A DNA stretch of 64,000 nucleotides from Meghimatium bilineatum (Eukaryota > Mollusca > Gastropoda > Stylommatophora > Philomycidae): positions 49,744,282 through 49,808,281 of the forward strand of contig CM067317.1 of assembly GCA_034231615.1 (NCBI GenBank), given 5' to 3'. The stretch's first letter is position 1; each line of letters begins with the position of its first letter. Under the pieces are notes generated by a model. That model had not been told where the DNA came from. It was given only the letters and a program-made list of their open reading frames with translations, and did no database searches. Shown here piece by piece: positions 643 through 55,705 of this stretch. Made by a program: the position numbers and the translations under genes.

Positions 643-901
643 AGGTGTCGCTGGGCTCGCAAGGGAAGAATAGAATAGCAACACTATGACCTTACTTGCT
701 CGTCGTAAGTGGTGACTAAAGATGTTTTAGGGGTGGGGTTAGCTGTTTACTCCATCGAGTGTCAGTCAGTGATCAAGAATTCATGCAGAATTTGGATGTG
801 TCCGGTCTAAAAGCACAGATATCGCAGCAAAGCTGTAAATCATGATACAGCACATTATGTTCTCTTGACTACATCCTGTTAACTAGCAGGAGTTTGAGAA
901 T
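643..901 (+). mobile_element. SINE-A, old near full-length copy
   Basis: Aligns along its length with the young copy at 55992-56271: AGCAACAC, GTCGTAAG..GACTAA, GGATGTGTC, AGATATCGCAGCAA, GACTACATCCTG and AGCAGGAGTTTGAGAA. Diverged, no clear TSD. A short inverted piece follows at 915-945. Confidence 0.75.
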
Positions 902-984
902 ATTTTCTTTGCACTTGTTCTCAAACTCCCACGGATCAATCTTGCAGTAGATAATGATCCTAAGTAGTATGTATAATTACGTAC

Positions 985-2300
985 TGTAATGACTGAACTA
1001 GGCTTGAAATGCAACATTGTGAGAAATGAGCACTACTGTGTGCTTAGGAGAATGTTAATTTAAAGAACTGGAATTGTAAATCATTATGTAATGGTGGATA
1101 CACTCAAGTGGAGATCAGAGCACCTATGTCGTGTAATAATGGATACACTCAAGTGGAGATTGGAGCACCTATGTCGTGTAATGGTGGATACACTCAAGGA
1201 GATCAGAGCACCTATGTCATGTAATGGATACACTCAAGTGGAGATCAGAGCCCCTATGTCGTGTAATAATGAATACACTCAAGTGGAGATTGGAGCACAT
1301 ATGTCATGTAATGGTGGATACACTCAAGTGGAGATCGGAGCACCTATATCATGTAATGGTGGATACACTCAAGTGGAGATTGAAGCACCTATGTCATGTA
1401 ATGGTGGATACACTCAAGTGGAGATTGGAGCACCTATGTCATGTAATGGTGGATACACTCAAGTGGAGATCGGAGCACCTATATCATGTAATGCTGGATA
1501 CACTCAAGTGGAGATTGGAGCACCTATGTCATGTAATAATGGATACACTCAAGTGGAGATCGGAACACCTATGTCATGTAATGGTGGATACACTCAAGTG
1601 GAGATCAGAGCACCTATGTCATGTAATGGTGGATATACTCAAGTGGAGATCAGAACACCTATGTCGTGTAATGGTGGATATACTCAAGTGGCGATTGGAC
1701 CACCTATGTCGTGTAATGGTGGATACACTCAAGTGGAGATCGGAACACCTATGTCATGTAATGGTGGATACACTCAAGTGGAGATCAGAGCACCTATGTC
1801 ATGTAATGGTGGATATACTCAAGTGGAGATCAGAACACCTATGTCGTATAATGGTGGATATACTCAAGTGGCGATTGGACCACCTATGTCGTGTAATGGT
1901 GGATACACTCAAGTGGAGATCGGAACACCTATGTCATGTAATGGTGGATACACTCAAGTGGAGATCAGAGCACCTATGTCATGTAATGGTGGATATACTC
2001 AAGTGGAGATCAGAACACCTATGTCGTGTAATGGTGGATATACTCAAGTGGAGATCAGAGCACCTATGTCGTGTAATGGTGGATACACTCAAGTGGAGAT
2101 CAGAGCACCTATGTCGTATAATGGTGGATATACTCAAGTGGCGATTGGACCACCTATGTCGTGTAATGGTGGATACACTCAAGTGGAGATCGGAGCACCT
2201 ATGTCATGTAATGGTTGATACACTCAAGTGGAGATTGGAGCACCTATGGATGTGTCTGGAGTGCAATGGTGATGATCTGATTACTAACTAACCGCCCTAC
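985..2300 (+). mobile_element. LINE C-terminus (RNase H family, L-H) with internal expansion
   Basis: Bases 985-1090 translate as LGLKCNIVRNEHYCVLRRML and match the segment QGLRCGVARDEHFGGRRRMM of the copy at 13140. Bases 2230-2300 match its last codons and stop (a WMC-like block, then a DD-T/L-TN end) and the TAAC tail. Between them is a tandem array of the intervening 45 bp. So this is a single LINE 3' end inflated by about 1.1 kb. Confidence 0.82.
1091..2250 (+). repeat. 45-bp minisatellite, about 25 copies, 3-divisible
   Basis: The unit starts ATGGTGGATACACTCAAGTG and codes VDTLKWRSEHLCHVM in one frame; the frames stay open because 45 is a multiple of 3. Between about 1558 and 2160 variants recur every four units (180 bp): GAACACC, AGAGCACC, AGAACACC and GCGATTGGACC types. 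The long open frames here are a by-product and not evidence for a gene. Confidence 0.95.
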
Positions 2301-3084
2301 AAGATTTTCAGCAAGATGTCCAGTGAACGAGAATGTATTGTGTCGCCTTTTTTTTTTTGCTTCAATCATCCATCATGCTTCAGCTACATTTTAAAACCAA
2401 TACAGAAGAAGAAATAAAGTAACATCGCTGCACTTAGGTAGACCCATTTGTGTTCAATCTCTACCAGCAGATGTAAAAACATATGTATGTTTACAGTTCA
2501 TTTTGCTGATGCTTCAGATATTCAGTTACTGCATGAAAACGGTTCGTTTTCATATAATTTTAATCAAAAAGAAAATGCAGGTTAGAGACAAATAGGGCCT
2601 ATACATTTTAATTTACCTGAGTTTACTAGAGTCAGAAATGAAACTTTCCTGGTCTCGCTGCTGTCTTGCCTCACTAAATAAATAGAGAAATACTTTGAAT
2701 TCGCAATACTGGATGTCTGACTGAAATTAAACTGGGTTTAATAAATAGGTGTGTGAATAATCATTTAAAAAATGCATTTCCTTGTTTTGAAAAACTAATG
2801 TCTATATCTTGCAGGAAAAAAATAGTGTGCACCAAAAGATGTAATATTGCAGCTCAGTAAACGACTATGTAAACTGGTAATACAGCGTTATTGGATAATC
2901 TTTAACATTTAAATATATAAAGAACCATTTTATAAATTAAAATTATTCAAATGTTGATATATGCTGATGAAAAATGTCATTAAGTATTTTAATACAGAGG
3001 TGGCACCCATGCTATATACTTATTATCATTTGTCTTAATACTGAGGGTAACCTTGTCCTTATTCCAATTAAGACAGTGAATTGT
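2301..3084. other. No recognisable feature
   Basis: AT-rich sequence, no coding similarity or repeat structure seen. A cytoplasmic cadherin exon was looked for on the minus strand and not found. Confidence 0.5.
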
Positions 3085-3300
3085 CTATTGTCTGTCACCA
3101 GGTGAATGATAGTTGATCTTGATCACACTTGCTGTTAAGCGTAGGGATGGGAGCTCAAGCTGTCGCTCTAAGGTCAGATGTGTCGCTGTGGTTGTATTTA
3201 GTCCATGTTTGTTCAAGGCTATCTTGATGTTTTCTATCCACCGTTTTCTTGGTCTACCTTTGGCTTTATGTCCAGATATTCTTTTAAGATGGTGAATATA
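3085..3300 (-). mobile_element. LINE C-terminal fragment (GRPRKRW type)
   Basis: The minus-strand frame reads GHKAKGRPRKRWIENIKIAL and TLERQLELPSLRL, the C-terminal tail of an endonuclease-RT LINE. It resembles the better copy at 45040-45780. It is 5'-truncated. Confidence 0.75.
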
Positions 3301-3339
3301 TGTTGCAAAATGTGTGTAAATATTGTCAAAACACATTCT

Positions 3340-4263
3340 AAGATAAATATGACAGTCATTACACAGACTAAAACAGTAAATAATGTGTCATTAATGTAAT
3401 AAAAGTGTATAAATATTATGACAACATTCTCAGACAGAGTAGTAGTGTCACTGTTGAGACATGTAAATATTATCATTACAAGATTCTCAGACAGAGGGTA
3501 GCCGTATCACTGTATAGACTAAACTGTACTAATTCAGCAATACTCCACATACCTAGTTCCTTGTTGTCATCTGCCTTTCTGAAATAAGAAAGTAGTGCAC
3601 AGATTTCATACAATATTCACAAGCCCCATAATATTTTACAATATATTTTAACTAGCATAACCATACGTAAGATCAATATAGATCACATAATAACAAATAA
3701 TAATTAAAGCATGTCCTATATAGAACATTGCTCTTCAACCTTTGTTGATTTTTTAGGCATCAATTTTATGTTTCAGTATAATGTGATAAATATGGCGGTG
3801 GACAACAGTGGACATTTCTTCATCCGCTAACTTGCGAAGTTGTGTTTCCTGTGCTATTGTGATATATTTTCCTGGCATAATGAATATTGTCATGTTCTAC
3901 CTACAATAGCATGTTTACTTCTGTTTATGTGCGATTTGTGCATGTGGACTGACACGGATTGTTAGTGTAACACAAAGGTTTGAAAAATGGTGACTAGTGA
4001 TTGTGTCTTTCATTGTGTATTCCAGACAGATGGAGTTTGTTAGTTTCAGGAGGGCCATTTATCTAAGAGAAGGCCACTCTAAAATCAAACCACTGCTGTT
4101 TTGTAGATCAGGATATTTTTACCCAAAGGCTAGTAGAGAATAACAAACAAACCTGCAGAAAGTAGTGGGAAACTACTGTTGTATTATCCCTAGATAACAT
4201 TATGTTTCGTTACGACTCAGATAACAAGTCAGTTTCAATAAGCAAGTCCATCAAATACAAGTT
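3340..4263. other. No recognisable feature
   Basis: AT-rich; probably leader or flank of the decayed LINE that starts at 4264. Nothing else seen. Confidence 0.5.
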
Positions 4264-5656
4264 AATCAAGATTGCAACTTGGAACATTCAGACACTGACA
4301 GACTTATTTAAGGAAAATTAGATAATATAAAGCAGGAAATGAGCAGAATGAATATCAACATACTTGATCTATGTGAGATGAGATGGCTGGGAGCAGGTAG
4401 CATAGTATCAAAAGATCCTAGAATAATATACTCAGGAGGAGATCAACATAAGAACGGCGTGGGAGTAATTTGGATAAGCAGAGTGCAAGATCTTATATAG
4501 AATTCTGAAATATATCAGACATAGTGCTATTAGTAAAACTAAAGGGGCAGCCTATTAATATAAATATCATCCAAGTTTATGCACCAACATCAGAGAGTAC
4601 AGAAGAGGACATACAACAATTCTACAAGGATTTGAACTAAAGCTATGAAACAATGCAAACAACATGAAGTACATTTTGTCATGGATGATAATGCTAAGGT
4701 AGGGGACAGTTAAAATGAGGATTTTACTGGTAGATTTGGATAAGGCACCAGAAATGAAAGAGGTGAGGTACTGGTTGAATGGCCAGAAATAATAATATGG
4801 TGATAGGGAACACATTCTTTGCTCATCACCCAAGACGACTATGGACATGGAAAAGCCCAGATAATAAGACACACAATCAAATAGATTACATCATAATAAA
4901 TAGAAGATTCAAAAATTCATTGAAGTCTGTTAATACATGTCCAAGCGCTGATTGAAACAGTGATTATGTTCCAGTTGTGGGAAAGACTAATATTAGGTTA
5001 AAGAGATTAAAAACTAGAAAGACAGATAGCACTCCTAATGTGAATATGCTGACAAAGAACATATAATTACAGGAACAATATAACATAACAATTCAAAATA
5101 GGTACAATGCGATAGAAAAATAGAAACCATTGAAGAACAGTGAACGATGTTAAAAGAATCATTGCTGCAAACATATAAAGAGACCCTGCCACCTAAGAAA
5201 CATCTCAATAGGAAAGAATGGATGACAGAAGATATTTTGAATATGATGAAGTAAAGAAGAGAGATGAAGAATAACAATGAAGAATACAACAAAATGAACA
5301 AAGAAATTAAACAAATGCAACAAGGCTAAAGAGTATTGGTTAAACGCAAAGTGCAGTGAAATAGAAAAATATCATCATAGAAATACAAGTGATACACATT
5401 TGTAAATAAAGCAATAACAAGCAGAAGGCAGGCTCACAAGACTGTGTGCCTGAAATCTAAGCATGGGCACGTGCTAATGGGAGAAAATGAAATCATGCAC
5501 AGATGGGAAGAATATATTAAAGAACTGTATGAAGATAACAGAAATGATACTAACTGAAATTATAAGAATGAAGCTCCAAGTGTATTAAGGGCAGAGGTAA
5601 AGGAACCTATACAAAACTTGAAAAACAATAAATCATTGAGTCTGGATAATATTACA
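4264..5656 (+). mobile_element. Decayed RTE/CFDP2-like LINE: endonuclease and RT start
   Basis: Broken plus frames give TWNIQT, EMSRMNINILDLCEMRWLGA and IIYSGGDQHKNGVGVIWI, the N-terminal part of an AP-endonuclease as in craniofacial-development-protein-2-like LINE proteins; then INIIQVYAPTSES and MDDNAKVG (the GDFNAKVG block). Near 5570 the RT begins (LKNNKSLSLDNI). Many stops. Interrupted at 5657 by a younger LINE end. Confidence 0.8.
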
Positions 5657-5946
5657 ATGTCGAACTTGTATGTGACTAAGAAACGACGAAAACTAGCATG
5701 GTTCGGACATGTATGCAGGCACGATTCCTTGTCAAAAACAATACTGCAGGGAACTGTCGAGGGTGGAAGAAGCAGAGGAGGACAAATAAAGACATGGACA
5801 GACAACATCAAGGAATGGACAGGGCTAGATATTTCCACACTCATCCGCATCGCTGAGGATAGAATTCGCTGGAGGACTCTGTGTGCTGAAGCTTCCAATG
5901 TGGTACCCCTACGACCCTGAAGGGTTATGGGTTTTATTGATTATTG
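5657..5946 (+). mobile_element. 5'-truncated LINE 3' end (family L-A), nested, TSD present
   Basis: A 290-bp insertion flanked by 9-bp AATATTACA (5648-5656, 5947-5955). The open frame encodes the LINE C-terminus: RRKLAWFGHVCRHDSLSKTI, GGRSRGGQIKTWTDNIKEW, AEDRIRWRTLCAEAS, then a stop at about 5920. It splits an older RTE-like LINE between its RT N-terminal block and motif A. Confidence 0.92.
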
Positions 5947-5955
5947 AATATTACA

Positions 5956-6600
5956 AAGGAATAGTTAGAAGGTTTTAGAGATTCTGGCATTGAAATTATC
6001 ACCAAAATGTTAAAAGACATCTACAACAATGGCTTTATATCATCTGATTTGCTACAATCAATTTTCATAGCCCTACCAAAGAAACCTGGTGCAGTAGATT
6101 GTGAAGATCACAGAACAATCAGTCTTATGAGTCAGATGACCAAGATTATTTGCGCATAATAATGAGGAGTATAAGAGGAAAAATCAAACCAGAGATAGCA
6201 GAAGAACAATGCGGATTTGTAAAAGGAAAAGGCACAAGAAATGCTCTATATATAGTAAGAACATTAATGGAGAGGGCCCTAGAAGTACAAGACCTATATC
6301 TGTGCTTTATAGATTACAGCAAAGCATTTGACAAGGTGAAGCATTCAGAGATTATAAAACTGCTAGAAAATCTTGACGTTGATGGGAAAGATCTAAGAAT
6401 AGTAAAAAAATATGTATTAGAAACAAACGGCTGCGATGAGAGTTAACAACACTATAGGTAGATTTCAAAAGATAGAAATGGATGTCAGGCAAGGTTGTGT
6501 AATGTCACATTATACAAGGTTGTGTAATGTCACATTATACAAGGTTGTGTAATGTTTTCCCCTGTATACATAATACATTATGCGAAATATAGAAGATATG
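5956..6600 (+). mobile_element. Decayed RTE/CFDP2-like LINE: RT core
   Basis: Continues the RT after the nested insertion: FIALPKKPGAVDCEDHRTIS, then EEQCGFVKGKGTRNALYIV, then CFIDYSKAFDKVKH, which is RT motif A with its aspartate. At about 6485 DVRQGCVMS (motif B) starts and is triplicated. Motif C was not found. The 98-codon open frame at 6150-6446 is only a remnant. Confidence 0.82.
6491..6560 (+). repeat. 25-bp triplication inside an RT motif
   Basis: Three copies of a 25-bp unit starting GGTTGTGTAATGTCACATTA. The first coincides with the codons of the LINE motif VRQGCVMS, so the duplication arose inside the RT gene. Confidence 0.85.
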
Positions 6601-7545: not shown

Positions 7546-8459
7546 CTAGTGATGGTAGAGCATATTTAAGTGATGGTAGAATATATGAAAGTCACGGTTG
7601 AACATGCGGAAGTGATGGTAGAATATATGAAAGTCACGGTTGAACATGCGGAAGTGATGGTAGAATATATGAAAGTCACGGTTGAACATGCGGAAGTGAT
7701 GGTAGAATATATGAAAGTCACGGTTGAACATGCGGAAGTGATGGTAGAATATATGAAAGTCACGGTTGAACATGCGGAAGTGATGGTAGAATATATAAAA
7801 GTCATGGTTGAACATGCGGAAGTGATGGTAGAATATATGAAAGTCACAGTTGAACATGAGGAAGTGATGGTAGAATATATGAATGTCACAGTTGAACATG
7901 CGGAAGTGATGGTAGAATATATGAAAGTCACGGTTGAACATGCGGAAGTGATGGTAGAATATATGAAAGTCATGGTTGAACATGCGGAAGTGATGGTAGA
8001 ATATATGAAAGTCACGGTTGAACATGCGGAAGTGATGGTAGAATATATGAAAGTTACGGTTGAACATGCGGAAGTGATGGTAGAATATATGAAAGTCACG
8101 GTTGAACATGCGGAAGTGATGGTAGAATATATGAAAGTCACGGTTGAACATGCGGAAGTGATGGTAGAATATATAAAAGTCATGGTTGAACATGAGGAAG
8201 TGATGGTAGAATATATGAAAGTCATGGTTGAACATGCGGAAGTGATGGTAGAGTATATGAAAGTCATGGTTAAACATGAGGAAGTGATGGTAGAATATAT
8301 GAAAGTCTATGTTGAACATGCGGAAGTGATGGTAGAATATATGAAAGTCACGGTTGAACATGCGGAAGTGATGGTAGAATATATCAAAGTCACGGTTGAA
8401 CATGCGGAAGTGATGGTAGAGCATGTGGAAATGATGGTAGAGCATGGGGAAGTGAAGGT
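7546..8459. repeat. 42-bp minisatellite, about 21 copies
   Basis: The unit is GTGATGGTAGAATATATGAA then AGTCACGGTTGAACATGCGG and AA. It starts 61 bp upstream of the acceptor of cadherin exon 15, inside intron 14. Because 42 is a multiple of 3, frames of more than 300 codons stay open on both strands; none is a gene. Confidence 0.95.
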
Positions 8460-8930
8460 AAGTAAACATGAACTGAAAAATTCTACAGTCCCCTTTACAA
8501 GGTACAAAACACAGTCAAGTTTATAGAAGAGATAAAACTTATTAAAAGATATAAGTATGTACTGGGCGAACAAAAGAAGAAATCAAATATAGAAATGATG
8601 AGGTACTCTTTAAAGCAAATATAGAAATAATGTCGTGCTCTATAAGGAATGCACATTTTCTCCGATTTATCATGACAAGTTGCAGTATATTTTGAATTGT
8701 TTATGATAATCTATAGGAATTGTCAATAAAGAAGTTAGCAGCTAGACTACTAAAGCACATATTCAACCACATATGCATGTGATTTGAAGGTATTAGACAA
8801 TGTGTTGATACTCTCTGGAGCAACTTCTTTAGATAATGTAAATCAACATCTTTAACCACACATCTGATTGATAATATATTTGTCATTGCTTCTATGTGTG
8901 CATTATGTCAATCATTCCTAGAGAAGTACA

Positions 8931-12755: not shown

Positions 12756-12770
12756 ACACATGTAGAATAC

Positions 12771-12936
12771 TTCTTCTTCTTCTTCAGTGTTCATTCTCAA
12801 ACTCCCGCCAGATCTCTCTCTTGTAGCAGGACAATTGTCCTACCAGATTTCCAGCAGGATTTAGTCCAGAGAATTGAAATGCGTTGTGTCGCCGTTTTAT
12901 TTGCGCCAATGGTCCGACACATCCGTCTTCGGCGGA
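12771..12936 (-). mobile_element. SINE-A short form, TSD present
   Basis: A 166-bp insertion flanked by 11-bp ATGTAGAATAC (12760-12770, 12937-12947). It starts with CTT repeats (the GAA tail) and ends CGTCTTCGGCGG. Contains GTGTCGCCGTTTTATTTGCG, also in the copies at 24422 and 55541. It lies between a LINE fragment and the L-H copy. Confidence 0.9.
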
Positions 12937-13139
12937 ATGTAGAATACAAATTGTGTATATTGAGGACTTAGTAGCGATAGTTAGCATGTTCAATGCCACA
13001 GTACATTCCAGAATATTAGACTGATGCAAAACCGGAGAATTCACCACTATATGAATTGTACTATCATAGTGTTTTGTAAACCACTGCGAGGAATAGAGAA
13101 GTCTGACACCCTGATAGGCCTATATATTCTGTTGAAACG

Positions 13140-13772
13140 TTGAGTATATACTATAGTGCTTGGGCCTTTACAGCTCAGTGCGCAGGTAAAACGATCAAGG
13201 AGGAAAGTGGTGCCTTTGCGGTCTCTACGAGTAGTATGACCATGGAGACTATGGCGGTGACCAAGGCATTTGAGTGGCTACGCACACAGAAAGTAACGCA
13301 GGTCTGCATCTTGAGTGACTCTATGAGTATGATTAAGAAGGTACAAGTGGGTCTCGTTCGCGAACAGTGGATTGAGGCCTTGAGAAATGAGAGCTTGAAA
13401 GCGGTTACATTTATTTTCGTGCCGGGACATGTGGGCGTTCGAGGCAATGAAAGAGCGGATCAACTGGCATCGTGTGCGATTGTGGCAAAGGGCGATGGGG
13501 CAATGGATCGCGCTGACGTTTTGAACTCCTTAAGAGATATAACACGCGAGAGTGAGACGAATGTGGATGATGATTCCTTTTCAATGGCTAGGATTAAAGA
13601 TCAGGGATTGAGATGCGGTGTTGCTAGAGATGAACATTTTGGAGGGCGCAGAAGAATGATGGTCAACCAGCATAGGACCGGTACTGTCAGCAGAAGTGTG
13701 ATGGCGGATACACTCAAGGAGAGATCGGAGCAACTATGGATGTGTCCAGTTTGCAGTGATGATGATCCGACG

Positions 13773-13828
<56 letters not shown>
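13140..13828 (+). mobile_element. LINE RNase H C-terminus (family L-H) with (TAAC)n tail
   Basis: The open frame (13140-13781, 213 residues) has most of a LINE RNase H domain: ETMAVTKAFEWL with the catalytic E, ILSDSMSM with the second D, PGHVGVRGNERADQLAS with the last D. The first strand with the YTDGS aspartate is missing at the 5' end. The C-terminal part ends MADTLKERSEQLWMCPVC and DDDPTTN. The 3' tail is a 4-bp microsatellite of TAAC units to 13828. It is the best preserved copy of this family and the source model for the 45-bp array. Confidence 0.88.
13765..13828. repeat. (TAAC)n microsatellite, LINE tail
   Basis: About 15 units of TAAC/ACTA directly after the stop of the L-H LINE; it is the LINE 3' tail. 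Confidence 0.9.
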
Positions 13829-13829
<1 letters not shown>

Positions 13830-14760
13830 CAACTGGTCCTATATAGAATTCGACATGCTGAACTGGATTGTTTTGAAAAGCAAAGTATTATGTTGTCAAC
13901 ATGTTATGTGAAGAGTTTGATGTACTGAACTATAGTGTCTTGAATCTAGAGTATTATGCTTTCCACATGTCCTACACAGAGTTCAACGCACTGAACTACA
14001 TGGTGTTGAAACACAGCGTTTTAACTTGTCAAAATGCAAAATTCGACAGGTTAACTATATTATTATCAGGAGATGCAGAATCTTATAGACTGCTTTGACG
14101 TATGCAGTTCTACACGTTGAATATGTTTGCCTTAAAGATACTGAATATTATATGAATATTATATTTTCCAGCTGACTTAGGCAGAATTCCATATTGAACT
14201 ATATTCACCTAGAACATGCACTGTATTATCTTTTCATTGATGTGTGCAGAGTTCTAGAGTTGAAACCATATTATCTCGAGACACAGTAGTTTATAATTAC
14301 CACTGATGTATGCAGAGTTCTAGAGTTGAAACCATATTATCTCGAGACACAGTAGTTTATAATCACCACTGATGTATGCAGAGTTCTAGAGTTGAAACCA
14401 TATTATCTCGAGACACAGTAGTTTATAATCACCACTGATGTATGCAGAGTTCTAGAGTTGAAACCATATTATCTCGAGACACAGTAGTTTATAATCACCA
14501 CTGATGTATGCAGAGTTCTAGAGTTGAAACCATATTATCTCGAGACACAGTAGTTTATAATTACCACTGATGTATGCAGAGTTCTAGAGTTGAAACCATA
14601 TTATCTCGAGACACAGTAGTTTATAATCACCACTGATGTATGCAGAGTTCTACAACTGATCCTTATTATTATTTGGAGAGATAGACAAGTATTTCTGATT
14701 TCTTTCCTGTGCAGTTTTCTAGCAACTGAATTGTATTTTCCTGGAGATCATACACTACGA
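13829..14760. repeat. 66-bp satellite with uniform core and diverged edges
   Basis: Bases 14238-14655 hold about six nearly identical 66-bp units (TGATGTATGCAGAGTTCTAG, AGTTGAAACCATATTATCTC, GAGACACAGTAGTTTATAAT). On both sides, units keep CAGAGTTC..A..TGAA..ATATTAT landmarks at similar spacing but are strongly diverged. Confidence 0.85.
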
Positions 14761-23870: not shown

Positions 23871-24421
23871 TTAAATATAGGTGCAACAAAGAGTCAATCT
23901 AAGGCAAGTTGCAACAACTGACATGGCAAAGAAATACAGTGAGGCCAAACATACTACAACCCCGTGATAGACTAAAGACTCTGCATGGGTAAAGAAGAAG
24001 CAAAATATTATGGAGTGGCAATATAAGATACAACAGATACAAGTCACCATAGATAGCAAAAAAAGAGTAAGAGATTACTATGAAGAAGAAAACTAAAGCC
24101 TTTAAACAAATCATTAAAGGAAGCTAAGAAAGAACGCTGGGATAATTTTGCACAAGATGTTGCAGCCGACAGTGCCCTATACAAATTTTGAAATTACACA
24201 AGGCAATGAATCGAAAAACTGACACAAAATTAAACTTGTGCTTGAAGGAAAATACCCTACTCAAGAGTTTGTGAGCTGGAGGAAGTGGGAAGAGGCTGTG
24301 AATGGGTGACATTTGGCAAAGATAGAAAGTTAGTTGTGAAACAGGTAGGAAGAGAGTGAGCCAACAGAACAGAGGGAATGATCCAAGAACTCATACTACA
24401 GCACTAAAAGCCACATGATAC
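23871..24421 (+). mobile_element. LINE inter-domain fragment upstream of RNase H
   Basis: Broken plus-strand frames contain LKEAKKERWDNFAQDV then ALYKF, the segment linking endonuclease and RT in I/jockey-type LINEs. The RT itself is absent; RNase H sequence follows after a SINE insertion, so the element has an internal deletion or is a composite. Confidence 0.55.
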
Positions 24422-24583
24422 TTTCTTCTTCTTCAGCGTTCATTCTCAAACTCCCACTGGATATCTCTTGTATCAGGACCATGGTCCCATTAGATTTCCA
24501 GAAGGATGTAGTCCAGAGAATGGAAATGCGTTGTGTCGCCGTTTTATTTGCGCCAATGGCCCGACACATCCGTCTTCGGCGGG
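24422..24583 (-). mobile_element. SINE-A short form, TSD present
   Basis: A 162-bp insertion flanked by ACATGATAC (24413-24421, 24584-24592). Same short form as 12771-12936. It interrupts the LINE fragment just before its RNase H domain. Confidence 0.9.
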
Positions 24584-24592
24584 ACATGATAC

Positions 24593-25080
24593 AATAATTT
24601 ACACAGATGGCTCAGTAACACAAGAAACAAACAGGTGTGGTTTTGGTTTCATAGCCTACCAAAAAGGCAAGAAATTAGCTGAGAAATCAGCTGAGTACCC
24701 CACTACAACATTGAGTATGAGAATGGAAATAGAAACGGTGACATCAGCTGTCACTTGGCTGGCAACACAACCACCAACAGACTCGGTGATTCTATCGGAC
24801 TCTCAAAGTATGCTGCGCAAGATAGAAGTATGATCAGAACTGAATGGATCACTCTTTTCAACAACACGCAGAGCATTACATGGATCTGCTGTCTAGGTCA
24901 TGCTGAGATCAGATGAAACATAAGAGCAGATGTGTTGACTGATAAAGCCTTGGTGAACGGCACTGTGATAAGAAGAGACAGGATTGAATTGATTAGAGCA
25001 GTCATGGATACCCTATGAGAAGATGAGAAGAAGATTGAACGAGACAATGTACATATTCAGAGATATGTATGTACTTATAT
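24593..25080 (+). mobile_element. RNase H LINE fragment (family L-H), pseudogene
   Basis: It opens with IIYTDGSVTQETNRCGFGFI, carrying the first catalytic D of RNase H, then MRMEIETVTSAVTWL and LSDSQSMLRKIEV. A stop at about 24832 and another inside the GHAEIR*NIRAD block make it non-functional. Sequence continues beyond two insertions at 25624-25740 (MRGMVEMGGTRGDG). Confidence 0.85.
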
Positions 25081-28245: not shown

Positions 28246-28629
28246 ATAGATAGATATTAAATAGATAATCAAATTTGTCATTGCAAAAGGCAACAACTGC
28301 TCAAGTATTTAGATACGCGATTGAGGGAAGAGATGTTTGAAGTTTGATTGGTTCAATTCCCCTCTCTCCCTTCCATGAGCAGCGATAGTAGTGTAATGTA
28401 AGGTAATTCTACGCCAACCAACAAACCCAGGTTCCGAGTTTGTTATTCTTGGTTTTAAGCAAAATATACTCACATGATTCACCCAGACACAAAGAAGTAG
28501 GGTACCAGAGCTGCTCATGTTTTGGGAAGGTCTAAGAGTCGCTGTAGAGGAAGTGCAGTAATCCGCAGTTTCTGGTCATCCACTGACTAGCTGAGCACTT
28601 ATGGGAAATCATGCACTTGATCCTGGTTC

Positions 28630-31135
28630 ATAACCACAGCTTAACTTTACCTATCCCCCCCCCACTACACACACACATAACCACAGCTTAACTTTACCTA
28701 TCCCCCCACATCACACATAACTACAGCTTAACTTTACCTATCCCCCCCCCACTACACACACACATAACCACAGCTTAACTTTACCTATCCCCCCACTACA
28801 CACACACACAACCACAGCTTAACTTTACCTATCCCCCCACTACACACACACACAACCACAGCTTAACTTTACCTATCCCCCCACTACACACACACATAAC
28901 CACAGCTTAACTTTACCTATCCCCCACATCACACATAACCACAGCTTAACTTTACCTATCCCCCCCCACTACACACACACATAACCACAGCTTAACTTTA
29001 CCTATCCCCCCCCACTACACACACACATAACCACAGCTTAACTTTACCTATCCCCCCCCCCTACACACACACATAACCACAGCTTAACTTTACCTATCCC
29101 CCTCCACTACACACACACATAACCACAGCTTAACTTTACCTATCCCCCCCCACTACACACACACATAACCACAGCTTAACTTTACCTATCCCCCCCCCAA
29201 TTACACACACACATAACCACAGCTTAACTTTACCTATCCCCCCACTACACACACACATAACCACAGCTTAACTTTACCTATCCCCCTCCACTACACACAC
29301 ACATAACCACAGCTTAACTTTACCTATCCCCCCCACTACACACACACATAACCACAGCTTAACTTTACCTATTCCCTCCACATCACACATAACCACAGCT
29401 TAACTTTACCTATCCCCCCACTACACACACACATAACCACAGCTTAACTTTACCTATCCCCCACATCACACATAACCACAGCTTAACTTTACCTATCCCC
29501 CCCCCCCACTACACACACACATAACCACAGCTTAACTTTACCTATCCCCCCCACTACACACACACATAACCACAGCTTAACTTTACCTATCCCCCCACTA
29601 GACACACACACATAACCACATCTTAACTTTACCTATCCCCCCACTACACACACATAACCGCAGCTTAACTTTACCTATTCCCCCCACATCACACATAACC
29701 ACAGCTTAACTTTACCTATCCCCCCCACTACACACACACATAACCACAGCTTAACTTTACCTATCCCCCACATCACACATAACCACAGCTTAACTTTACC
29801 TATCCCCCCCACTACACACACACATAACCACAGCTTAACTTTACCTATCCCCCCCACTACACACACACATAACCACATCTTAACTTTACCTATCCCCCCA
29901 CTACACACACACATAACCGCAGCTTAACTTTACCTATTCCCCCCACATCACACATAACCACAGCTTAACTTTACCTATCCCCCCACTACACACACACATA
30001 ACCACATCACACATAACCACAGCTTAACTTTACCTATCCACCCCACTACACACACACATAACCACAGCTTAACTTTACCTATCCCCCCCACTACACACAC
30101 ACATAACCACAGCTTAACTTTACCTATCCCCCACATCACACATAACCACAGCTTAACTTTACCTATCCCCCCCACTACACACACACATAACCACAGCTTA
30201 ACTTTACCTATCCCCCCACTACACACACACATAACCACAGCTTAACTTTACCTATTCCCTCCACATCACACATAACCACAGCTTAACTTTACCTATCCCC
30301 CCACTACACACACACATAACCACAGCTTAACTTTACCTATCCCCCCCACTACACACACACATAACCACAGCTTAATTTTACCTATCCCCCACATCACACA
30401 TAACCACAGCTTAACTTTACCTATCCCCCCCACTACACACAGTACATCACACATAACCACAGCTTAACTTTACCTATCCCCCCACTACACACACACACAT
30501 AACCACAGCTTAACTTTACCTATCCCCCCACATCACACATAACCACAGCTTAACTTTACCTATCCCCCCACTACACACACACATAACCACATCTTAACTT
30601 TACCTATCCCCCCACTACACACACACATAACCGCAGCTTAACTTTACCTATTCCCCCCACATCACACATAACCACAGCTTAACTTTACCTATCCCCCCAC
30701 TACACACACACATAACCACAGCTTAACTTTACCTATCCCCCCCACTACACACACACATAACCACAGCTTAACTTTACCTATCCCCCCCACTACACACACA
30801 CATAACCACAGCTTAACTTTACCTATCCCTCCACTACACACACACATAACCACAGCTTAACTTTACCTATTCCCCCCACATCACACATAACCACAGCTTA
30901 ACTTTACCTATCCCCCACTACACACACACATAACCACAGCTTAACTTTACCTATTCCCCCCACATCACACATAACCACAGCTTAACTTTACCTATCCCCC
31001 ACATCACACATAACCACATCTTAACTTTACCTATCCCCCCCACTACACACACACATAACCACAGCTTAACTTTACATATCCTCCCACCACACACACAACC
31101 ACAGCTTATCTTTATCTATCCTCCCCCCCCCCCAC
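28630..31135. repeat. 2.5-kb satellite, about 60 units of about 44 bp
   Basis: The unit is ATAACCACAGCTTAACTTTA, CCTATCCCCCC, then either ACTACACACACAC or the shorter ACATCACAC. C-run length varies from 5 to 10. Long and short unit types alternate irregularly. Lies in the intron between cadherin exons 9 and 10. The gene strand is G-rich across the array. Confidence 0.96.
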
Positions 31136-31570: not shown

Positions 31571-32536
31571 CTGCCGTATCAGGCTTCTTCATTTAACTTT
31601 TGATGTAAGTGATTCTCCGAATCCTGTGTACATATTTTATTTGAAACATTTGTTTGTAATATGATGTAATGTTTATAAGTCAAATAACATTACAGACATC
31701 ATCATCATTTCTGTAGTGCTACATAGGACCTACTAGTGTGGCTTGCGAAGCATCTCTGTTTCTAAATTTCATTAAAGGAGTCAATTCCTTTTATCTTCAT
31801 CTCTTGTCAGTGTTATTTCTAGTATCTCTTCTGAAACTTTACTATTTAGTGGGTGTACAAATTTAGCGAAAAAAAACAGTAATATGAAATTAAATGTAAC
31901 GACAGGGAAAATAAAAGAGTTTTCAAGAGAACAAGAAGAAAGAATCTATTCTGTTGTCCAGTTGCCCCTTTATTTTATCCAGAATGAAGTCAAATGGACT
32001 CTGCTTGCCTGTCTGTCCATGTCTGTCATATGAATTTTAATTGATAACTTTTGAGATCTTTCTTGCCATTCCCATTCCACAATGTTTCTTGTTACTTTAT
32101 TTGATGCTGCCATATTACTTCCCTGGTTGTCATTGTTGTAACAATGACATCACACTGACATGTGTTTTCTGGTTTATCTAAAATAGTATGACTTTCTGGC
32201 ATTAAAATACAAATGTATTCCCACAAAACATAAATACCCATCTTATTTCTTTCCCCTAATGTCTTTATCTGAAGGATTACATTGCAATTCTTTGGCTGTT
32301 TCTTCTAATTGTTTCCTACATATGCCCTACATACTATCTTACTTTGATTTTTGATGAAGTTGTTGCATGCACAAGTCTCTTATTTCTGTATTAGACATGC
32401 ACTCTTTCTTTTCTATACAAAGTATCTTTCTGAAACATTTATTTTTTTTAAACATCTAGGTAGTTCACTCTCAATAGTTTTAATTGAATCCTAGTTTTTT
32501 AAACATACAGCACAAATATACAAATATAACACTGAC
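31571..32536. other. Intron sequence, nothing recognised
   Basis: Region between LINE debris and the donor of exon 9; no coding or repeat signal beyond short T tracts. Confidence 0.5.
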
Positions 32537-35500
32537 CTGATCATGTACTGTTTGATATGATTCAAGCTGAGATCTTGGGGTATTGTTCCTACTAACGTAT
32601 CAACAATTTGATTCTCTTTGACCTTAAAATGATAGTCACCTTTGTTTGGTTTTAAAGTTGGTGTTATTACAATGTCTATGGTCATGGTTCCGGTCAGCGA
32701 AGGAAAGCCTTGATCAATAGCTGCAATTATGAGTGTGTGAAAGCTGTTTACTGACTCTAGAGAAGTTGCTGTTTTGATCACACCTGTCATGGATTCGATA
32801 TTGTACAAGTGATCAATGTTACCACTCTGAATGATGTACGATAATTTTCCATTCCTTCCCGTGTCTCTATCTGAGGCTTGGACTTGGCCTATCGATGTTA
32901 AGATTGGTGTTTCCCTTTTGATAGTAATTTCTAATCTGGACATTCCAAACAGGGGAGCAATATCATTCACATCTCTGACTGTGATTGTCACAACCTTAGT
33001 ACCTACTAATGGCGGTGTGCCTCCATCTTTTCCCTGAACAACAAGAATATGTTGACGAGAACTCTCAAAGTCAAGGCTGGAGTTGAGAGACATAGCACCA
33101 GTATTGGGGTCAATAGCAAACTGACCATTAGAGTTACCTGACACTATTGAGTACTGTATATTTCCATTTACCCCAGAATCTAGATCATTGGCAAATACAA
33201 TTTGAAAGACCGTTCCAACCAGGAAATCCTCAGGAAGTGTAACTTCACTGGATATGTTAGCAAACACTGGAGCATGATTGTTTGAATCAATGTTTATAAC
33301 CAGTAGAGAGAAGCCAGTTCTGCTATTCATTCCAGCAATATCAGTAGCTGTGACAATGAGATTGTGACATTTAGCTATTGAGTATTCAAGTTTCTTTGTA
33401 AGACTAATATCACCTGTAGATGGATTAACAGTAAAGTATTGATTTGGCTCAATAGAATATTGAATGGTTCCATAAGATCCAGCATCTTTATCTGTAGCAA
33501 TTACTTTCCCAATAACTGTTCTCATCGAGGCTGTTACACTGACGTTCCAGATAACAACATCTGGGGAAAATACTGGGTCGTACCTGTTGACTTGTATAAC
33601 TGTGATTGTTAAAGTAAAGTTTGCGCTCAATGAAAAATTGTTCTTGTTATAAGCTGTAATAGTTAAGATATACGCAGTGCTTAATGAGTAATTAAGACCA
33701 CCAATGAGCTGCAACCTTCCAAAGTGAAGCTCCACATAGAATTTGCTAGAGTCCCCACTTGTCAATGAATACAGTAGATCTCCAGGATTTGTTGATGATT
33801 GTTCTGTCGCTCCACAATAAGTTGCATCTACATCATACAAAAGACTTGATGTGATGTGAATTTCTTCAACAGAAATGCTGTCAGTTTTTCTATCAAAACA
33901 TGGCGTCTTCAACTCTGGAGTGATTATAATCATCACGTAAGCTGTGGAGCTTCTAGGAGGATCCCCGTGATCAGTTGCCTGAACAATTAGGTCTATGCTG
34001 CTTTGAATATTAGCATCCAAAGATGCTCTATTTGTTAATGTCTTCCCATTTATAGATAATTTTCTATTAGGATCCCCACTTATGATGGTTAAAGTTAAAT
34101 CCTTATTGACATCAGTGTCAAGATCTGTTACAGAGAAAGTTACTAAATTTGTGCCAGCTCCAGTGCCATGTGGAACAACTATTTCAATGTTGCAAGTATT
34201 AAAAAATGGATCATTATCATTTGCATCAATAATTGTTACAACTAAGATTGTGTCTTCTGTTTTTCCATTTAAGTTACTCACTCGAATACCTATGTTTATT
34301 GTAGCAGCACTTTCTCTGTCCAGTTCATACATCAAATATACCACACCTGTTGTTTCGTCAATAGTAAAATTATTGCCATCATTACCACTAGTGATTGCGA
34401 AGATCAAATCTGACTTACTGCCATTACTTTTAACATCAATTTTGGCAACCATAGCACCAACTGTAGTATTTTCTGAAAGTGTTACGTCAACCTTACCTCC
34501 AGATTGCACAATCATAAAATTATTATCATCAACATGAACTACTTCCACATAAACAATCATTGTGCTGTTCAAGGGTGGAACTCCTCTGTCAATAGCACAA
34601 ACAACAATTGTGTAGAATGACTGGATATTATAATCAAGTTTAGATACTAAACGGAAAACTCCACTGACATCATAACTGAACATATGAAACGGATCTCCAG
34701 AAATTATTCTGTATTCAACATCTGCATTTTCTTGAATATCCAGATCAAACACTGAGTACTGATTTAGTAGCAATTGAGGTGTTGATGTCTCTAATATCCT
34801 GAGGTAGTCAGACGACATTTTGTATATGGGGGCATTGTCATTACTATCCTGAACTAACACAGTTAGCGTCTGCTGCACAGACTGCCCATTCATTGTTGTT
34901 GCTGTGATTGTCAACTCAAACCGGTCTTTTATTTCTCTATCAAGTTTTTGAACAACTATTAAACTTCCTGTTTTTAGATTGAGATTAAATTTCCTCTCAA
35001 TGTTTCCATTCATTATTTCGTATCGGATATTGTTCGCCCCTCTCGCTGAAACTCTATATACAATATTTCCAACACTTGTGTTCTCTGGGACTGTAATTTG
35101 TGCTGGTAGATTTAAGAAAGAGAGGATGGTCTCCACAGTAATGTGAACTTGTACCTCTGTTGTTCTTTTCGGTGTTCCCTGATCACTAACACCAATAAAG
35201 GCAACATAATAACCTTCAGATGGTGCGGTTAGTAACTTCATCTCGCCAGTAATTTTATTTACATTCACAATAATACTAGGATCACAGCTTTCAACATCGT
35301 ATTGTAAAACTGTATTAGGATTCAAATCTATACAATTAAGTTTTCCTATCGTATCTTTGTTGTTATTGTGCGCTATCGTTACTGTCTGAACTGGATCACA
35401 CATAGGATCGTTATCATTTTCATTTAAAATAAATGCGTTGATAACACCGGTAGATGATTTAATAACTGTGGTTGACTTATCTGCTGCTATCACAATCAGG

Positions 35501-35663
35501 CTGTAGAATTGGGTCAACTCAAAATCTAGTTTGATGCCCACATAAAGGTCACCAGTTTCTTTCACAAGAACAAATGGCACATTATCATCTTGAAGGTAGT
35601 ACTCAATTTTCCCATCTTTGCCATCATCTAAGTCAGTGGCTGTAACTGAAGTGACATGGGTCC
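32537..35663 (-). CDS. Cadherin gene exon 9: giant exon with about ten EC repeats
   Basis: This single 3,127-nt exon (1,041 codons plus 2+2 split bases) runs from a TTCACAG acceptor, phase 1 in, to a GTCAGT donor, phase 2 out. It completes the repeat begun in exon 8, then holds about nine more, and starts another that finishes in exons 10-11. Linkers in order, by approximate codon: NENDNDP (80), none (177), DSNDNAP (275), VDDNNF (377), DANDNDP (482), none (584), VNRYDP (694), DSNNHAP (795), DVNDIAP (897), none (1003). Motifs such as LDRE, LDFESS, AIDRGVPP and ATDHGDPP recur. Three linkers lack the calcium motif, so parts of the rod may be calcium-free and flexible (inference). No frameshift or internal stop. 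Confidence 0.95.
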
Positions 35664-36139
35664 CTGTGAATAGTTATTGCAGGAACTGTAATATGTAATA
35701 TATTATAGTAAGTAATTTGAACAAATTTGCAAATATTTTGTTACAAAATTAATAATGAATAAACACTGCAAGAAATGTATATTATAGTACGTTTGTTCGT
35801 CCGTATGCGCTGTTCACAAACTATAAGGAAGTGCAAGTTTGTAGGTCTTGTTCTCTTTGTGCCAGATATGCAATTTGACTTTTGACTCTCAGTTGTCTTT
35901 CTTACTTTTTTTCTGGGCATAAGGTTTATCTCAATGTGCTTTTAAGTTCAAAAGACTGTTTGTGAGTTCAAAGTACAGGAACAAGAATGAGGCAGCTTTC
36001 AATTCTGAAATGAGAAATCCGGTACTTTGTCATGCAATGCCATGAACTGAGCAGGTCTCTATTCCAGAAAGTGAAATGAGGTACTTTGTTATTTGATGGC
36101 AATTTTCTACTCTGTAAGGGCTAATGATGTACTTTGCCA
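35664..36139. other. Intron sequence, nothing recognised
   Basis: Upstream flank of the giant exon; a loose GGTACTTTG(C/T)CAT word recurs about every 60 bp (36022, 36072, 36131). Confidence 0.45.
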
Positions 36140-48919: not shown

Positions 48920-49638
48920 CCTGCGGGGGATACCGACCCCTACCAGGAGCGTCCACAGGTGGCGGATAGTGGAAAAGCCTCTTGAGGCCAGCTGTGAATA
49001 ACCCTCTGGGCAAATAAACAGCCGCTGACCAAACGGTGTCGCTGACCACGAGGACGGGGTGGGATATCAGTCGGCGCTGATATTCCCACTGAAATACCCC
49101 ATATGTCCATTGACTGGCAGCATCAAAGCGAGTATGAGCCGCTATAAGCTCAGGTTGCTGGAGTGGGGTCAGTGACCCCACTCCAGGAATGTGCCAGGGG
49201 GAGGGGAGGGGGGTAGGGATAGGGTTTAGGTATGGTTAGAGGGTTGGGTAGGGTAAATGGGAAATTATAGATATTAGAACAAGAGAGAGCAATGTTCTTA
49301 AATCACCTTCCCTGAGTGAGGGGTGTCTTAGATTACAAGAAATAAACCACAGAGGAGGATAATGAATACCTGGCAACAACAAAATTATCCTAGGAGAGGG
49401 GAACTCTACCTCAAAACCCCGGGCAGATGGTGCTCGTTAACCCTGTTAGGCAAGCTGTCTAGGAGAAGGAAAACTCCAAAATGAAACCTCCACTGCCCTG
49501 TGGACAATCCTTGGATGGATAAGGGCTAGGGAAACACATCCTGACTCAAAAGTAAGATGGAAGACGGAGACACTGGACTGAAAGGTACAAAATAGTCCAG
49601 CCAAGGCTGAAAACCACAGTGTCACGCAATGACTTCAC
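48920..49638 (+). promoter_or_regulatory. LINE 5' leader
   Basis: About 720 bp precede the LINE start codon. All plus frames contain stops, so no ORF1 is encoded. The first 250 bp are GC-rich compared with the flanks, and a run of G tracts lies at 49196-49256. I infer an internal promoter here as in other LINEs, but no motif proves it. A long minus frame across the boundary (48747-49181) is taken as chance. Confidence 0.5.
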
Positions 49639-52600
49639 ATGTCAAATAAAAGGTTACAGATGATTCGTTTTGGTGCTTCATCTGTGGAATCCCGTCAGGT
49701 GGATGAAGTGCCGGGCTCTAAGCCTCGAAGGAGCCCACCCTCAGCGACTGGTGGTACCTCTGTCTCAATTTGTGGAGCCAGGAAAAGAGATCAGAGGAAA
49801 AAAACTACTGGTTCAAAAAAATCACATATAGATCATGATGCAGACAAAAATAAGCACTTAAAAATATTGCAGTGGAATGCAGAGGGCGTGTACAATAAAA
49901 AGACTGCACTTGCAAACCGATTACACACAGAGGAAATCGACATAGCATGCATACAGGAAACACACCTCACAAACAACAATAGATTCAACATCCGAGAATA
50001 CCAAACATTTCGGAACGACAGAGAAAAAAGACATAAAGAAGGAGTTCTTATACTTGTGAAAAACAATATCGTTGCCTCTGAAATTCGAGTAGACACAGAA
50101 GAACAGGCTGAAATCATTGGAACCTGTCTAACCCTTCCAACTAAAGAGGTCACAGTATATAACTATTACTGTCCACAAGACAAGAGCCTATCTCTACACA
50201 CAATTAACACAGAAAAAGATAACTGTCTTGTAATTGGTGACTTCAATAGCCACTCACAGAGTTGGGGATATACAGAACAAGATACTAGAGGAGAAGAAGT
50301 GGAAGACTGGCAGTGTGAGGTGAAACTTCAACTGCTTAACGAACCTGAAGACCACCCAACTTTCTACTCTAGAAGATGGCACACCACCTCAACCCCTGAC
50401 CTAGCCTTTGCAACAGACGCCTTAGCGAAAATAACATACAGGGAAGTGCTGGAGCAGCTTGGTGGAAGTGACCATCGCCCCATCAAACTCACCATTGACA
50501 TTAACCATACCCCTGCTGGCCCTACAACCACACCCAGATGGAACTTCAAGAAAGCAAACTGGAGTAAGTTTGCTGACCTGACAGACAAATTCACAAAAAC
50601 CTTAAATCCAAGGATTAAAAACGTGAACAAAACTGCACAACTCCTGGCTTCTGCACTTCTTCAAGCAGCCAAGCAAACCATACCAAGAGGTGCTAGGAAA
50701 AATTACAAACCGTACTGGTCTGACGAACTCGATGAGTTGGAGAAAGAAGTGTCAAAGGCCAGAGACACAGCAGAAAAAAGCCCATCCACAGAAAACAACA
50801 TATCACTAAAAGCTGCTGTAGCCAAACTAAGAAAAACAACAATTACAAACACAAGGAAAAGCTGGCACGAAAAAACAGAAAATTTAAACTTCGACAAAGA
50901 GGGAAGAAAGCTATGGAAAATAACAAAAATGCTCAACAATGAAGATAACAAAACAGCACCAGTAGCTATAGAGAATGGTGGAGATGTACTCACAGGAAAG
51001 AAGGCTGCAAATCACTTTATACAGCATTACCAAAGTACTGCCTGCCACAAAGTCGATGAAAATAGGAGAAGAGAAGTAAGAAAAGAACTACGGAATATCG
51101 AAAAAGAGATCAGCAAAGACAAACAAGATGTCATGAATATTCCTTTCACGATCAATGAACTAAATGAAGAACTAGCAGTATTAAAACTTAGGAAATCACC
51201 TGGCCCTGATGACATACCAAATGAACTGCTAATTCACATCGGACCATCAGCAAAAAAGAAATTAATAAAAATTTTTAACAACTGTTGGGATAGAGGTCTA
51301 GTGCCACAGGTGTGGAAAACCGCCATAATGATACCCATCCACAAGAAAGGCAAGCCAAAAAATAAGGTGGACAGCTATCGCCCAATAAGTCTGACCAGCT
51401 GTGTTTGCAAATTAATGGAGCGCCTGGTAAACAAAAGAATGATGTGGTTCCTAGAAAAAAATAAAATCCTGCTAAATCAGCAAGCTGGCTTCAGAAAGTG
51501 TAGATCAACTGAAGACCAGATTACACTAATTGCCCAGGAAGTAGAGGATGCTTTCCAGGAAAAAAAGCAGACATCAGTGGTGTGGGTAGATATGGAAAAA
51601 GCCTTTGATTGTGTATGGAAAAATGGACTCCTCCTTAAACTACAACAAAACAAAGTGACAGGGCGCATGTATTACTGGATAAAACACTACCTGCACAACC
51701 GAAAAGCAGCAGTGAAGCTTGAAATGAAGCATAGCAGAAAGAAACTCTTTAAGCATGGAGTACCACAGGGAGGTGTTCTATCCCCCACTCTGTTCCTTAT
51801 ATTTATGAATGACATTGACCAAATTCTCTCGCGTAAAGTAAATGCTGCAATGTATGCAGACGATCTGGCGATATGGTGCAGTGAAGAGAGCGTAGGCACA
51901 ACAAAAATAAGGTTGCAAGAAACTATGGACAATTTGGCCAAGTGGACAGACCAATGGGCCATGTCTATCAATGCCCAAAAAACTACCTATACCATCTTCA
52001 GCATGTCCACCAAACCACAGAAAATCCTACTAACCATAAATGGTCAAACATTGCCAAAAGATGAGACACCTACATACCTTGGAGTCACTTTTGATCCAAG
52101 ACTTACATGGAAACAGCACATAGACAAGTGCCAAACAAAAGGTACAATGAGGACAGCACTCCTTAAAAAATTGGCTGGAACAGATTGGGGTGCAAATGGA
52201 AAAATTCTAAGTAGAGCATATACAGGTTATGTAAGACCAGCTTTGGAATATGGAATGTCAGCATGGGGGACTGCAGCCAAGAGTAACACTCAAAAGATCT
52301 CAAAGATACAAAACCGCAATCTCAGAATTATAACAGGTGGTATGAATACTACCCCAATCACAGAAATGGAAACATGCACAGGTTTGCCATCAATGGAAGA
52401 AAGAAGAAATGAAAAAATCCTCACACAGTATGCAAAGTTCAAATGTTTGGAGAGTCATCAAATGAACCAAAGACTAAGCAGACCTACAAAAGAGCGACTC
52501 AAAAGAGGTAGCTTTCTACACTCCGCTAAACAGCTCCAGAAATCACTCACAGATACAGACCTACAAAACCTAAAACCACTAAACACCTTTAACACATACC

Positions 52601-55480: not shown

Positions 55481-55540
55481 TTACCCCCGGCTCCCCTAAG
55501 CCTACTATTTGATAGTTCAAAGTTGTTCGTTGCGTAATAA

Positions 55541-55705
55541 CATTTCTTCTTCTTCGGTGTTCATTTTCAAAATCCTACTGGATCTCTGTTATAGCAGGAC
55601 AATTATCCTACTAGATATCCGACAGGATGTTGTCCACGGAATGGAAATACTATGTGTCGCCGTTTTATTTGCGTCAATAGCCCGACACGTCAGTCTTTGG
55701 TGGGT
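55541..55705 (-). mobile_element. SINE-A short form
   Basis: Starts TTTCTTCTTCTTCGGTGTTC and ends GTCTTTGGTGGG, like 12771 and 24422 but more diverged. No TSD found; a second reversed tail piece lies at 55727-55760. Confidence 0.8.

Follow-up and report, generated by a model that had tools for sequence, protein, structure and literature searches.

The tandem array at positions 1086-2248 (forward strand) of the window, by which we mean the whole 64,000-nucleotide stretch of Meghimatium bilineatum DNA that was analysed, is very probably an ordinary minisatellite, which was born in place inside a dead LINE copy and was then partly re-copied in blocks. An in-place amplification of LINE sequence had been put forward in the original prediction, and it is supported by the LINE flanks of the array, by empty insertion sites, and by single-copy relatives of the amplified segment.

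Structure of the 45-bp array and its LINE surroundings

The array was delimited by TRF, unit parsing, and junction mapping. TRF gave a period of 45 bp and 26.0 copies with 91% matches over 1086-2248, in agreement with the roughly 25-fold amplification of a 45-bp unit that had been predicted. The core motif occurs 26 times, 24 of the spacings being 45 bp and one 40 bp; owing to this 40-bp unit (1188-1227, forward strand, by unit parsing), the array has gained 1120 bp net, a length not divisible by three. Minisatellites, or VNTRs, have tandem units of approximately 10-100 bp, and 26 copies of 45 bp fall within this size. Satellite DNA forms very long homogenised arrays with one unit common to many loci, whereas the present array spans 1.16 kb, and the 39 loci described below have 2-67 units with locus-specific unit lengths.

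The unit of the array is the LINE segment TC(A/G)TGTAATGGTGGATACACTCAAGTGGAGATCGGAGCACCTATG. Each unit holds 45 contiguous LINE bases, from TC(A/G)TGTAATGG to CACCTATG, which are arranged head to tail 26 times. The unit consensus and the LINE copy at 13.1 kb are identical at 34 of 38 bases, so that the derivation of the unit from the LINE stands as predicted, and the LINE piece VMADTLKERSEQLW had been named correctly. A model of the junction that assumed filler bases where units meet was given up, since other copies carry TCATCATG there; the 45-bp unit is thus a plain duplication. At the best junction split of the window array, no base was common to both ends.

Between the 22 consecutive full units the mean difference is 8.9%, and 19 distinct unit sequences were counted among all 26, the final one of which runs into the right flank. 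As revealed by a lag-4 test, the part at 1543-2172 (forward strand) has a higher-order period of four units (180 bp), with the unit order KLMN KLON KLM PQN. The mean mismatch in this part was 1.6 at lag 4, compared to 3.3-4.2 at lags 1-3 and 5-7, and a lag-4 mean as low was reached by 9 of 5000 unit-order shuffles; when the 22 consecutive full units were taken, the count was 18 of 5000. Furthermore, an exact 179-bp repeat at lag 180 starts at 1669. The 180-bp period that had been noticed earlier is therefore real, and the second round of block duplication read from it is borne out by the lag-4 similarity together with the exact run.

LINE sequence was found on both sides of the array, as had been claimed. 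The left flank (963-1085, forward strand, by translated match) corresponds to the part of the LINE that follows the RNase H domain and precedes the C-terminus, and it is degenerate, with a stop and a 6-bp deletion. Its translation, GLKCNIVRNEHYCVLRRMLI--*RTGIVN, was aligned to GLRCGVARDEHFGGRRRMMVNQHRTGTVS of the 13.1-kb copy with a score of 65, compared to 45 for the best of 3000 Markov sequences, and the alignment extends up to the unit with a single two-codon gap. In a six-frame scan of the window, this flank ranked third, preceded by the LINE and by a related copy located at 38.9 kb. At the DNA level, the left flank matched the 13.1-kb copy, taken alone, weakly: 11 of 1000 shuffles were as good, and of 2117 stretches scanned across the window, with the neighbourhood of the flank included, 34 scored as high. 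This comparison was replaced by the translation and a family consensus. The right flank (2249-2292, forward strand) comprises the last codons and the ACTAACTAAC tail; with the tail included, 35 of its 44 bases are identical to 13739-13782, and none of 1000 shuffles was as good. Against the consensus of 33 old single-copy LINE ends, the left flank scored 99 and the right flank 175, values that 0 of 500 shuffles equalled in each case. The array therefore lies inside a TE copy, with single-copy LINE on either side.

The array can be read through without a stop in two frames (384 and 369 codons from stop to stop), which can happen with a stop-free 45-bp unit. The array has no coding role, and nothing points to its translation. 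The amplification had been described as in frame, and this is correct for the 45-bp unit alone; it fails for the array, whose net gain is 1120 bp, whose left flank carries the stop and the deletion, and whose two flanks are in different frames.

The LINE fragment is itself enclosed by an older interspersed repeat. The left part of this host repeat (897-962, forward strand) aligns to 12764-12842, and 895-962 also aligns to 24416-24489 and 55535-55610; the right part (2294-2401, forward strand) aligns to 12837-12951, 24484-24596, and 55607-55693. For either part, 0 of 3000 random window stretches outside the known copies scored as high. By alignment, the repeat lacks the LINE in three copies, at 12770-12945, 24423-24582, and 55544-55703 (all on the forward strand), in which the left and right parts abut with an overlap of 4-6 bp. 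Since the two parts abut in these other copies, the LINE fragment (about 963-2293) was inserted into the older repeat, and the overlap is a possible target-site duplication. Without the 1120 bp of extra units, the fragment measures about 211 bp; the array-bearing LINE is a 5'-truncated, dead copy.

The copy at 13155-13828 (forward strand), recognised by its RNase H match, is a young, 5'-truncated LINE copy, in which the unit segment is single and which ends in an (ACTA)14 tail. An RNase H domain (PF00075, E=1.7e-9) is thus present on the relative of the source LINE, although the match covers only profile positions 34-139 of 141; no RT domain was found in this 5'-truncated window copy. The original prediction took it, from position 13140, as the intact counterpart of the array. 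This does not hold, because the copy is truncated and belongs to a young subfamily, and it is a relative rather than the parent. When 36 old single copies were compared with it for their match to the window unit, 8 matched better, 5 equally, and 23 less well, the best being L070 with a score of 181 against 154 for the 13.1-kb copy. The proposal that the old copies as a group are closer to the unit was withdrawn, since it is true of only 8 of the 36.

The LINE family is very large, with 82,845 first-look candidates in the genome. At least 150 copies of the young form share 97-100% protein identity over 179 residues (scored matches, the young copy included), and the 149 other matches listed for the young copy have 97-99% identity; this form probably stems from a recent burst of the family that includes the array's LINE. 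Open frames of up to 1195 codons occur in the young form among the matches listed. An uninterrupted 1300-codon LINE ORF at 49633-53535 encodes endonuclease, RT, and RNase H domains, and its family apparently differs from that of the array's LINE. In viral contigs, tblastn detected no relative of the LINE protein, and the unit pattern had no match.

Arrays reported by TRF cover approximately 13% of the window, a share that seems high and that indicates tandem growth to be common here. The largest is a 2.5-kb array of 44-bp units at 28629-31126. At 7568-8460, a 42-bp array of 21 copies has long open stretches on both strands. A 66-bp array lies at 14238-14652, about 400 bp after the young LINE, and the stretch just upstream of it matches 13836-13903 with 72% identity over 68 bp, which suggests that a young, homogenised core sits within an older, decayed array. 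Besides these arrays, a cadherin gene occupies 32491-35673 on the reverse strand; its open frame of 1060 codons contains eight stretches that match cadherin.

The same LINE segment elsewhere in the genome

A genome search for other copies had been proposed as a check. The 1.61-Gb assembly (32 contigs) was searched with a query made of the flank and approximately seven units, and the 89 matches obtained were grouped into 39 loci including the window, a lower bound since scoring covered 40 of the 1506 candidates. This LINE segment is thus tandem at at least 38 further loci. Fourteen modal unit lengths, ranging from 32 to 52 bp, were observed at the 39 loci: 40 bp at 18 loci; 45 bp at six (the window, L009, L014, L018, L019, and L043); 35, 39, and 47 bp at two each; and 32, 38, 41, 42, 43, 49, 50, 51, and 52 bp at one each. 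The number of units varies from 2 (L041) to 67 (L020). With LINE sequence taken as recognised when at most 2 of 500 shuffles were as good, both flanks were LINE at 24 loci (window included), the left flank at 30, and the right flank at 31; one or both flanks were not recognisable as LINE at 15 of the 39 loci, and neither was at L011 and L038. The 67 copies at L020 have a 52-bp unit (2919-6426 in the LINE direction), and this locus has its right breakpoint deeper in the LINE end than the majority of the others.

When the junctions of each locus were mapped against its own flanks, the left and right boundaries of the units were found to differ between loci. Bases common to both ends were ATG at L034 (35 bp), AGTG at L040 (41 bp), and TAAATG at L027 (39 bp). 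Private flank variants recur inside the locus's own units, as at L027, where TAAATG is in the left and the right flank. At L021, L035, and L041, the flank starts with a partial unit, which gives meaningless overlaps of 12-14 bases, and loci with eroded flanks have poor junction splits with up to 12 mismatches. The raw number of 22 junction classes therefore overstates the number of events, and it is the clean junctions alone that clearly differ. A second, upstream LINE segment is also tandem at 7 of the 39 loci (0 of 300 shuffles as good) and is borderline at L018, L032, and L046 (1-2 of 300). L046 also has a 39-bp array at 2647-2945 (LINE direction), the unit of which resembles, by eye, the older repeat at 12770-12945; this repeat may seed arrays too.

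In the young copies, one unit was found in 20 of 20, sampled from the 149 matches listed. Old copies were collected without use of the unit, the query being the LINE sequence before it; 38 of the 39 other matches listed were examined, C20:19749200-19749635 being left out, and the sample is non-random in favouring copies with an unbroken alignment to L017. The segment was present in 36 of the 38, L068 and L095 being without it. It is single in 35 of these 36, and L103, which ends 32 bases after its unit, is undecided. No second unit above chance was detected in the 38 old copies, where the runner-up match never scored higher than 64 and shuffles reached 71. The core pattern did not pick up L069 and L078, which were assessed by eye and by alignment scores. 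Right beside the unit segment, L088 carries a 21-bp tandem duplication of 2.3 copies (bases 79-126 in the LINE direction), which, in a copy chosen regardless of arrays, is a possible newborn array. L082 has a 16-bp array of at least 11 copies at bases 124-301, from the LINE's own 3' tail region.

The relationships between the flanks were examined for the 24 loci flanked by LINE on either side together with 33 single copies drawn from the 38 old ones, L041 being left out as too short. For 23 array loci, the nearest flank relative was a single copy in 21 cases, an array of another unit length in two, and an array of the same unit length in none; for the window array it was the single-copy L099. 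The flanks are short and diverged, with a median distance of 0.37 over approximately 110 compared bases. Closeness within a length class was not evident for 40 bp (p=0.12, 10 loci) or 45 bp (p=0.74, 5 loci), a comparison of little power. An earlier form of the test with 72 rows, which included loci without LINE flanks, gave p=0.81 for 40 bp (n=18) and p=0.38 for 45 bp (n=6); in it, L041 was the nearest relative of 20 of 39, with a median of 76 compared bases against 110. The mean flank distance was 0.34 among single copies, 0.38 from single copies to arrays, and 0.43 among arrays. Since single copies make up 33 of the 57 rows and have less diverged flanks, they are favoured as neighbours, and the nearest-relative result thus supports independence without proving it.

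Origin of the arrays and alternative explanations

The best reading of these comparisons is that the arrays arose in many independent births, in which a tandem duplication with little homology would have been followed by slippage or unequal exchange. Most likely, the first step was a single tandem duplication, produced either by slipped replication or by end joining that used little homology or none; the array would then have grown through slippage and unequal exchange, blocks of units being duplicated as well. For the first step, a slip while the LINE was being inserted is a possible alternative, because the segment is near the LINE 3' end; however, duplication of the segment was seen in 0 of 20 young copies, which bears against it.

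Local amplification agrees with the single state of the segment in all 20 young copies and in 35 of 36 old ones and with the single-copy nearest relatives at 21 of 23 loci. If, on the other hand, the tandem structure had been inherited from a LINE source copy by retrotransposition, the copy number being changed locally afterwards, the recurrence of 40-bp and 45-bp units at 18 and 6 of the 39 loci would be accounted for. We consider this improbable, since the same single-copy counts speak against an inherited array, no nearest flank relative has the same unit length, and the 14 unit lengths come with differing boundaries. The arrays that share 45 bp (6 loci) or 40 bp (18 loci) could nevertheless partly descend from one tandem source. 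The capture of an unrelated satellite beside or in the LINE draws on the tandem nature of the array and nothing more; it is refuted by the unit being the missing LINE piece, collinear with both flanks, and retains practically no probability. No more can be granted to the idea that the array is translated into a repeat protein or is a coding expansion under selection. The two frames that run through the array are what it has to offer, but both are open at once, the net gain is no multiple of three, the left flank contains a stop and a deletion, and the element is truncated. Mis-assembly can affect tandem arrays, yet a copy number produced by the assembly is very unlikely here, given that the units are of 19 distinct sequences and follow an ordered pattern, and that similar arrays exist at at least 38 other loci.

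A separate question is whether the segment is a true hot spot, in the sense that its sequence, or reverse transcriptase slippage near the LINE 3' end, leads to duplications far above the rest of the element. At least 39 loci came from 40 scored of 1506 first-look candidates, whereas a control query, the 25-bp array of L023, gave 17 matches including itself from 15 candidates, the best other match having E=9e-29. This control array is doubtfully LINE (14 of 300 shuffles as good), the loci were found with the array as the query, so that the segment was preselected, and 7 of the 39 loci have other LINE segments in tandem. Moreover, duplication was absent from the 20 young copies, and a second unit from the 36 old ones. 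We therefore regard a hot spot in this strict sense as unlikely. The related proposal, that the 40-50-bp segment near the LINE 3' end truly serves again and again as a birthplace of minisatellites, with dozens of independent first duplications that have their own breakpoints and are driven by the sequence or by the insertion, is put forward tentatively, as a possibility that we do not favour at present.

Relation to known systems and significance

It is established that minisatellites can be derived from TEs in place (PMC3389668); satellites derived from SINEs have been described (PMC10702118), and LINE ORFs have been reviewed as sources of satellites (PMC9659126). According to Ahmed and Liang 2012 (PMC3389668), 23% of human minisatellites and satellites are TE-derived, 5,747 of 5,932 clusters are single-locus, and flanking direct repeats account for some births only; known mechanisms cover just 6% of the human TE-derived cases (section 3.4), and a section heading presents TE regions as tandem-duplication hot spots. 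Like the human cases, the present unit is part of a TE copy and was grown locally; unlike them, dozens of loci here draw on one short segment of a LINE family with differing unit boundaries.

The squamate SINE-derived satellites (Vassetzky 2023, PMC10702118) likewise have units made of retroposon parts and end units extending into the element, and their origins are mostly independent, as they appear to be here. They differ in having a SINE source, up to 1000 units, and a subtelomeric preference, whereas the present arrays stem from a LINE coding segment and have units of 32-52 bp. As cited in the review PMC9659126, chicken HinfI (CR1) and Phodopus PROsat (L1) resemble our case in that LINE coding sequence is the source of the unit; they are satellites, in contrast to the short arrays at single loci here. 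Among the papers listed in literature searches, none was recognised, by its title and the start of its abstract, as describing dozens of independent arrays from one LINE segment, which is no proof of absence.

TE-derived minisatellites as such being known, the point of interest is the recurrence at one LINE segment. The start of minisatellites is mostly unexplained, and one LINE family here gives many apparently independent births from the same starting sequence. Since the single-copy relatives represent the 'before' state, breakpoints, homology lengths, and rates could be directly measured instead of being inferred. If the segment were indeed a repeatedly used birthplace, each first duplication in this one genome would keep its own readable breakpoint.
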